From Thermococcus sp. EP1 (GTDB lineage: Archaea; Methanobacteriota_B; Thermococci; Thermococcales; Thermococcaceae), in contig NZ_JXCG01000001.1 in assembly GCF_001317345.1 (NCBI RefSeq), forward strand, positions 372,001 through 436,000: 64,000 nt of DNA, in the 5' to 3' direction. Below, piece by piece: positions 37,724-39,780 of this stretch (positions are counted from its first letter, which is position 1; every line of letters begins with the position of its first letter). The notes under the pieces were generated by a model. That model ran no database searches and was not told where the DNA came from. It was given only the letters and a program-made list of their open reading frames with translations. The position numbers and the translations under genes were made by a program.

Positions 37724-38002
37724 CTATTTGTCAACTTCTATATCTTTGAATTCGTCCTCGTCAATTACTACAAAGGGTATTTTCATCTTCTTGAGCATTT
37801 CAATGAGCTGGTTGTGTGTCTTTTCTAGTCTTTCTATTTTGTGCCTTAAGCTTTGGTTCTCAATGTAAAGACTAGTTGCTTCTTCTGTTTTCATGTTGAG
37901 TTGGGTCTTTAACTCAATTATTTCTTCTTCAAGTTCAATAATAGAACGTTCAAGTCTTTCTATTTCCCGATAGAGGTCCTTACAGAGGATTCTTTTTATC
38001 AT
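37724..38002 (-). CDS. Small coiled-coil protein of unknown function
   Basis: A 92-residue protein that is almost entirely a heptad-rich helix: LYREIERLERSIIELEEEI through RHKIERLEKTHNQL, followed by a short acidic tail (VVIDEDEFKDIEV). It should dimerise as a coiled coil. The ATG at 38002 lies directly after a predicted C/D-box guide RNA, with no standard ribosome binding site. It follows the HEAT-like gene on the same strand, 50 bp away. No function can be assigned. Confidence 0.65.
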   Translation of the reverse strand: MIKRILCKDLYREIERLERSIIELEEEIIELKTQLNMKTEEATSLYIENQSLRHKIERLEKTHNQLIEMLKKMKIPFVVIDEDEFKDIEVDK

Positions 38003-38004
38003 TA

Positions 38005-38060
38005 CGGTCAGCCCCGCGAAACTTCCTCATCACTCAGGGGGCTCCAGACTCATCATTCCG
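38005..38060 (-). ncRNA. C/D-box guide RNA (predicted 2'-O-methylation sRNA)
   Basis: Read on the minus strand: C box ATGATGA (38056-38050), a 12-nt spacer GTCTGGAGCCCC, D' box CTGA (38037-38034), C' box GTGATGA (38033-38027), a 15-nt spacer GGAAGTTTCGCGGGG and D box CTGA (38011-38008). CGG before the C box (38060-38058) pairs with CCG after the D box (38007-38005) as a terminal stem. This is the canonical archaeal layout. By the D+5 rule it would methylate C in GGGGCTCC and G in CCCCGCGAAA targets. Targets are not identified. Confidence 0.75.
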
Positions 38061-39780
38061 ATTTTACATTAATTCTTATGTTTCTTGGGTCTTTTAATTT
38101 TTTGTTTATTTCTTCAATCAGAATTTTTATTCTTCTTTCCACGATTTCCGGTACTTTGGAGTTTAGATCCTTCAAAATCGTCGTCAATTCCCATAATCTT
38201 TCCGTTTCATCTGATGGTATAGTATCGATAATGATTTCTATGATTCCTAATGTCCATATTGCAGTTTTCTTTTTTGTAAGTAATCTAGGCAAATATTTTA
38301 ATATCAATTCCCATGCATTCTTGTCCCATTTGTTTTTTAGATAATACTTAAAGAAAATTAGAGCTCTCATTCTGTGCTTGTCTTCTAAAAACAAGAATTT
38401 GGCGATATCATTTATATTTTCTTGTGAATTTGGGAGGATACTTAATATTTTTGCAAGAATTTTTGCAGTTTTATCTACCACCCATTCATTATTTGTGGAG
38501 GAGAAAATTCTAAGCAGTTCAGGAACAAAAAGTTTAAACTCCTCCACGTTCTGAGAATTTATCTCATTAGAAAGTTCATAAAGCTCCCAGAGAGCATCTA
38601 TAATTTCTGCACGATCACTGCTCCTTAATTTTGTCATGAGGTTTGAAAGATCTTTTTTCATTTTGTTCAATTCAAATTTGCTATCTGCATTCCCATCATT
38701 TTCAACTGTCTTTTTTCTGATTGTTAGATAGCTTAAACGGGGTATATAAATTGTTTTTTCTGTTAGGTCAGGGTGGATATTAAGGTACTTGGGCCCACTC
38801 ACTAATCTGAGGAGACCTTCAATCCCTTTTTCTTTTTCTCTTTTGTTTTCTTTTATCTTCTGAGAAACCCATTTGATAATATCTTCATTCCCTATTATCC
38901 CAGCTAAAGTCATGGCATCTTCATACCTTTCTTCTTGAATTAAGTCCTCCAGTACTCTAAATGATTCGTTTATTCTCATACGATAGTATTCACGGATAAC
39001 CTCAATGAGATAATTGATAGTTCTTTTCAGTTCGCTTCTTATAAGCCAGCTTCCAGATTTTTCAATTTCTTTCATGGCTTTTATCCATGCAAAGGATCTT
39101 TTGATGATCTCACCTGAATCCTGGTATCTTGTTGCAATCTCCTTGATAAGTTCAAGTGTAACTTCCACCACAGTTTCATCGTCACTCTCTAATAGACTGG
39201 GGATCTTTGATAAAATCCCTTCCAGAATTTCTGTTGATCTGATATCTCTAGTAGAATTCAAAAACCTCCAGAGGCCCCATGTTCCCAAGACTCGTACTCT
39301 ATCGTCTCTTGAGAGTGTCATTTCAGTAAGGTAGTTTAAAATAGACGGATGGGGTTTTATGAACTTTAAAGCTTTGAATGTATTTACAAGCTGTAGGAAT
39401 ACAAAATCATTCTCTAGTATGCGTGGAATGCTAATTGTTTCAAAAATTTTTAAGGAAGCGTTAGCTGATAGTGATATTCCCTTTATTAGTGATTCCAGCA
39501 CTCTCAGGGTTAGTTCTTGGATTCTTTGATTTTCATCAAAGAGATTTTCTAGCAGTATCTCCAAACCTTCTTCTAAAAATCTCTTTCGTTGTTCTATATC
39601 CGTAAGTTTAATCTTTTCATTCAATATCTGAAGTGTTCTGATTTTTGTGGGGAGATCTCCTTCTTTAATTCGCTCTAATAATTTATTTAAAGTCTCTTTG
39701 TCTATTCCTTTTTGAATAATTTCTTGAGTAGGTGAAGGCTGTTCTTTTATTATATAATCATTTTTGAAGAGCCCACTCAT
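38053..39780 (-). CDS. Large helical repeat (HEAT/ARM-like) protein of unknown function
   Basis: A 575-residue soluble protein made of repeated antiparallel helices, e.g. RVRVLGTWGLWRFLNST, DDETVVEVTLELIKEIATR and EIIDALWELYELSNEIN, that look like HEAT or armadillo repeats. The middle has a less regular linker (about 320-375). No catalytic or metal motifs are seen; such folds bind proteins or nucleic acid. ATG 39780 follows AAGGGGTGTGGA. Its stop codon overlaps the C box of the predicted guide RNA. Downstream is the coiled-coil gene; the nitrilase gene ends 17 bp upstream, so one operon is likely. Confidence 0.72.
   Translation of the reverse strand: MSGLFKNDYIIKEQPSPTQEIIQKGIDKETLNKLLERIKEGDLPTKIRTLQILNEKIKLTDIEQRKRFLEEGLEILLENLFDENQRIQELTLRVLESLIKGISLSANASLKIFETISIPRILENDFVFLQLVNTFKALKFIKPHPSILNYLTEMTLSRDDRVRVLGTWGLWRFLNSTRDIRSTEILEGILSKIPSLLESDDETVVEVTLELIKEIATRYQDSGEIIKRSFAWIKAMKEIEKSGSWLIRSELKRTINYLIEVIREYYRMRINESFRVLEDLIQEERYEDAMTLAGIIGNEDIIKWVSQKIKENKREKEKGIEGLLRLVSGPKYLNIHPDLTEKTIYIPRLSYLTIRKKTVENDGNADSKFELNKMKKDLSNLMTKLRSSDRAEIIDALWELYELSNEINSQNVEEFKLFVPELLRIFSSTNNEWVVDKTAKILAKILSILPNSQENINDIAKFLFLEDKHRMRALIFFKYYLKNKWDKNAWELILKYLPRLLTKKKTAIWTLGIIEIIIDTIPSDETERLWELTTILKDLNSKVPEIVERRIKILIEEINKKLKDPRNIRINVKSE

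Follow-up and report, generated by a model that had tools for sequence, protein, structure and literature searches.

In the common view, C/D box sRNAs have rRNA and the bodies of tRNAs as their targets. Being an archaeal guide, sR23 would direct ribose methylation together with L7Ae, Nop5 and fibrillarin. A connection of another kind is found in Escherichia coli, where 3'ETS-leuZ is a tRNA trailer that is complementary to an sRNA and serves as a sponge for it. As reviewed by Breuer et al., overlap with the end of a gene is frequent among sRNAs of archaea and a C box commonly contains a stop codon, and 5' overlaps, which are rarer, lower the expression of the downstream gene (PMC7994747). A C/D-type k-turn beside a start codon is also present in the 5' UTR of the L7Ae mRNA itself, where it regulates translation in place (PMC5539422, PMC6298567). 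The sR23 family is catalogued in Rfam for Pyrococcus and Thermococcus (RF01138), in an entry that gives a link neither to a downstream gene nor to tRNA-Gln trailers. For the orthologue from T. kodakarensis, sR46/Tko-sR50, expression, transcript position and circularisation have already been published. According to the accessible parts of the two reports, it maps to 1371729-1371790 (+/-5) with a TSS at 1371720, is represented by 176,232 small-RNA reads and has a 62-nt circular form dependent on the ligase TK1545 (PMC9014305), and it lies inside the 5'-terminal part of the transcript of TK1565, which is abundant (Jaeger et al., PMC4247193). The conserved fixed junction and the targets described in the following are not reported in those parts.

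The window studied here is a stretch of 64,000 nucleotides from Thermococcus sp. EP1. RF01138 matches it at full length on the minus strand at 38006-38058 (70.1 bits, E 6e-15, gathering cut-off 45), and the RNA is thus a member of the already catalogued family sR23, with which it shares length, boxes and D' guide. This agrees with the original prediction of a C/D box sRNA, and the elements named there are all in place: including the terminal stem CGG (38058-38060)/CCG (38005-38007) the feature spans 38005..38060 and consists, in the direction of transcription, of the C box ATGATGA (38050..38056), the 12-nt D' guide GUCUGGAGCCCC (38038..38049) that makes up the C-D' spacer, the D' box CTGA (38034..38037), the C' box TGATGA (38027..38032), the D guide GGAAGUUUCGCGGGG (38012..38026) and the D box CTGA (38008..38011). 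The stop codon TGA of the upstream gene (38055-38053) resides within the C box, and the ATG of the downstream gene (38002-38000) follows 2 nt past the CCG of the terminal stem. There is a single complete C-D'-C'-D pattern in the window and none in 200 random windows of equal dinucleotide make-up.

Conservation in other species, proposed originally as a check, is extensive. Of 94 Thermococcaceae genomes 90 were found to contain sR23, compared with 0 of 14 controls, and positions 3-11 of the D' guide are near-invariant throughout the family. Weak second matches to RF01138 in genome groups g3, which we take to be the Pyrococcus group, and g5 (L064-L069) belong to a distinct C/D sRNA, the D' guide of which is AUACGGGGCCAC. 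The genus of the window is group g1, presumably the T. litoralis/T. sibiricus group.

The gene arrangement around sR23 is equally informative. On the downstream side, a gene for a 92-aa coiled-coil protein (37724..38002, minus strand) begins 5 nt after the D box; its orthologue occupies the TK1565 position in T. kodakarensis. This gene was detected in 85 of the 94 Thermococcaceae genomes, and where both elements are present it starts no more than 11 nt after sR23 in 74 of 84 cases, the commonest spacing being that of the window (5 nt past the D box, equivalent to 4 nt past the end of the Rfam model). The junction of sRNA and start codon is kept in six genera. Overlap of an sRNA with a gene is an arrangement of known kind, and the present data add that it is conserved from genus to genus. 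Nor is the coupling strict, since sR23 and the coiled-coil gene are unlinked in three genomes of the Pyrococcus group and sR23 occurs without a detectable coiled-coil gene in four genomes. In G074 (L032) the coiled-coil gene is interrupted by a stop codon and in G079 (L037) and G087 (L052) it was not detected, while sR23 is intact in all three, implying that the sRNA can persist when the protein is missing. An identity of the protein as YabA was considered and dismissed; the Pfam score is borderline (30.5 versus 30) and the scores stay far under the NCBIfam cut-offs, so that we read it as a generic coiled coil. Upstream, the gene for a 575-aa HEAT-like protein (38053..39780, minus strand) is a lineage-restricted neighbor; no more than a few close relatives have it in front of sR23 (among them L034, L039 and L041; 45% identity in L033), and we rejected it as a functional partner because it is not conserved. 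The idea that sRNA levels are tied to both flanking messages is thus supported for the downstream gene, with which the T. kodakarensis data agree, and not for the HEAT gene.

Several features point at sR23 as the 5' leader of the coiled-coil gene. In aligned upstream sequences, an A/T-rich, TATA-like peak is located at -37 to -26 relative to the C box in most relatives, and for the genome of the window a possible BRE/TATA element, aaaaattaaaaga, can be proposed at approximately 38083..38096 (minus strand), inside the 3' end of the HEAT gene, which covers the presumed sR23 promoter. Because of this element some 26-37 nt before the C box, sR23 probably has its own promoter. By its coordinates the T. 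kodakarensis sRNA represents the same locus: the sR23 match in G024, presumably T. kodakarensis KOD1 (1371731-1371782), coincides with the mapped sR46/Tko-sR50 and the coiled-coil ORF begins at 1371787. The TSS lies 11 nt before the start of the sR23 model and the mapped junction of circular sR46 extends to the nucleotide that follows the ATG, +/-5 nt. We propose that sR23 is transcribed, from a promoter of its own, as leader of the coiled-coil gene and that the precursor either gives rise to the sRNA, by excision reaching roughly to the start codon, or is used as mRNA. sRNA and coiled-coil mRNA would then plausibly compete for one transcript, and after excision of the sRNA the message would be leaderless at most. 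A GGDGRD (Shine-Dalgarno) site 3-13 nt before the coiled-coil start was found at 0 of 45 junctions, and in 33 of the 45 such a motif is present only further upstream, within the sRNA. The position of sR23 near the start codon fits with the 5'-UTR switch of L7Ae, and translation control at this place is a putative function. Unlike the L7Ae element, which acts in place, sR23 is a complete dual-guide sRNA that is excised.

Targets in the genome of the window were sought by sequence-pattern searches. The two exact target strings put forward originally, GGGGCTCCAGAC and CCCGCGAAACTTC, match nothing apart from the sRNA itself, and the proposal that targets would be found among rRNAs and tRNAs was borne out in another form, by matches in tRNA-Trp and the tRNA-Gln precursor. 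Positions 2-11 of the D' guide are complementary to GGGCUCCAGA and form 10 bp with positions 29-38 in the anticodon arm of tRNA-Trp. The first G is missing from the D' target and guide position 1 stays unpaired, which is why the pattern GGGGCTCCAG failed to match tRNA-Trp. C32 is situated opposite guide position 5 and hence in the correct N+5 register, so that the D' guide is predicted to direct formation of Cm32. The corresponding 10-mer GGGCTCCAGA resides in the intron-containing tRNA-Trp of every genome examined (that of the window, G076, six from the Pyrococcus group and G060). No good match to the D' guide exists in rRNA, and the mature 3' end of tRNA-Thr, GGGGCTCCA, was rejected as a target since it offers no partner for the UCU that is invariant in the guide. 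The tRNA-Trp target is not new, as C32 of P. furiosus tRNA-Trp is already a predicted C/D target in snoRNAdb, as cited in the accessible part of Wolff et al. (PMC7668247); predicted non-wobble methylations including that of tRNA-Trp C32 were not detected in the tRNAs analyzed by these authors (PMC7668247). The same anticodon arm is acted on by the C/D sRNA from the tRNA-Trp intron (RF01297, sR40), which differs from sR23 in being intron-encoded and in guiding positions 34 and 39 (Cm34/Um39) instead of the predicted 32.

In the genome of the window, and likewise in G076, each of the two tRNA-Gln genes is closely followed by the same 10-mer, GGGCTCCAGA. Altogether it occurs in 58 tRNA-Gln trailers and starts 6-8 nt after CCA in 57 of them and 10 nt after CCA in the remaining one. 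Identity amounts to 98-100% at nine of the ten positions and to 93% at the first G, compared with at most 67% in the flanks. The conserved stretch thus coincides exactly with D' guide positions 2-11, and position 1 has no partner here, just as in tRNA-Trp. A report of a conserved C/D sRNA site in a tRNA 3' trailer was not encountered in the open papers searched. Alternatively, the motif could serve in cis as a signal for folding or processing of tRNA-Gln, with its GGGCU pairing with AGCCC of the 5' acceptor strand, as it does in some predicted precursor folds, or with the trailer pairing with the anticodon arm UCUGGAUCCC, to which, judged by eye, 9 of 10 nucleotides are complementary. Against this, the C that faces U in the anticodon arm never varies, which would be expected if the motif paired with sR23 but not if the precursor paired with itself. 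Pairing with the acceptor strand does not account for the final AGA, and genomes without the motif share the same 3' half and anticodon arm of the CUG tRNA; we regard a signal in cis as improbable. Most trailers of Thermococcus s.s. and a few others (e.g. L198, L252, L122, L164, L173) contain, 1-8 nt past the motif, CGAACCCC, usually in the form TCGAACCCC. This is the reverse complement of GGGGTTCGA in the T-arm, and if the two paired, the site of the D guide would become free. The genomes G074, G077, G078, G087 and G092 each contain two tRNA-Gln genes with near-identical trailer starts, suggesting gene conversion running past CCA.

The second guide of sR23 points at the same precursor. Among the tRNAs of the genome, tRNA-Gln(CUG) and tRNA-Gln(UUG) are the two best partners of the D guide (-21.7 versus -16.7 for the next), the match to CCCCGCGGGGCU in the 3' strand of T-stem and acceptor comprising 12 pairs, of which 9 are Watson-Crick and three G-U. 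This score is matched by 1% of shuffled guides. In the precursor the D site comes first and the D' site follows about 12 nt on, which is the order needed for simultaneous pairing by both guides. Besides tRNA-Gln, there is an rRNA candidate for the D guide, ACCCGCGAAA in 23S rRNA, with 9-10 Watson-Crick pairs. sR23 may therefore be viewed as an ordinary dual guide that methylates tRNA-Trp C32 via D' and 23S (or 16S) rRNA via D, the trailer motif having another cause; in group g5 position 1 of the D guide becomes U and pairs with an A in 23S rRNA, and guides of this kind are the norm (PMC7994747). We consider this rather unlikely as a full account, as it leaves unexplained why a 10-nt trailer motif keeps a fixed distance and corresponds precisely to guide positions 2-11, and why at least three lineages have lost both this motif and the D guide. 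The invariant UUU of the D guide, together with the three G-U pairs where C would pair better, nevertheless suggests that the D guide has a further, A-rich target containing AAA, such as ACCCGCGAAA in 23S rRNA.

The distribution of trailer motif and D guide bears on this question. The motif is present in 48 of 50 genomes with the canonical D guide and in 0 of 12 in which this guide is a variant; Fisher's test, without correction for descent, gives p = 4e-11. The two exceptions are G064, a contaminated assembly, and G003, in which one gene was seen. G055 and G065, chosen as a test because of their variant D guide, both lack the motif. Conversely, G069 has the motif though sR23 was not found, and the sR23 locus may be absent from the assembly. 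A comparable association is apparent within single genomes: in Thermococcus s.s., the T-stem CCCGGCG of the UUG tRNA-Gln gene breaks pairing with the D guide and this gene lacks the motif, which is present at the CUG gene. Genomes whose D guide is variant retain the D' guide, which is what one would expect if tRNA-Trp is still the target of the latter. The association might also reflect shared descent and not function, given that the genomes are related and independent events few. On a tree of the coiled-coil protein, however, the variant D-guide class needs four changes, at least three of which are forced by well-supported branches; trailers were read in three of the lineages with a changed class and the site is absent from all three. 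D guide and trailer site have thus been lost jointly, and descent as the sole reason has only a slim chance of being correct.

We favor the reading, with a probability of roughly 60%, that sR23 is the leader of the coiled-coil gene with a promoter of its own, that its D' guide is directed at tRNA-Trp C32 and that both guides pair with pre-tRNA-Gln. Binding of sR23 to pre-tRNA-Gln is the new element; it is evolutionarily supported and putative. With the D guide on CCCCGCGGGGCU and the D' guide on the trailer site GGGCUCCAGA, the sRNP would straddle the CCA end of pre-tRNA-Gln before trailer removal in most Thermococcaceae. A point against this reading is that methylation at the trailer site would serve no purpose, as the trailer is discarded. 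The pairing may have a role in tRNA-Gln folding or 3'-end maturation. Another possibility is that released tRNA-Gln trailers or precursors act as a putative sponge, titrating the D' guide and tuning Cm32 of tRNA-Trp to tRNA-Gln transcription. The 58 trailers are indeed complementary to the sRNA, in likeness to 3'ETS-leuZ, and mimic the tRNA-Trp site perfectly, free position 1 included. The sR23 match is distinct from that case in being bidentate, involving trailer and tRNA body at fixed spacing, and in concerning a methylation guide. A sponge needs neither a fixed distance from CCA nor a matching D guide, both of which are observed, and we judge it quite unlikely; because the trailer site keeps its distance from CCA, a role in folding or maturation appears likelier. 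More tentatively, and with less than even odds in our estimation, sR23 straddling the 3' end of pre-tRNA-Gln could couple 3' maturation of tRNA-Gln, anticodon methylation of tRNA-Trp and expression of the coiled-coil protein.

The start-codon junction in six genera provides a clear case of an sRNA and an mRNA that probably compete for one transcript. If the proposed pairing is correct, a guide RNA would gain a role in folding or 3'-end maturation of a precursor tRNA, or a new kind of sponge would be added, and a single RNA would tie together tRNA-Trp, tRNA-Gln and a protein gene. As T. kodakarensis is genetically tractable, the pairing is directly testable there.
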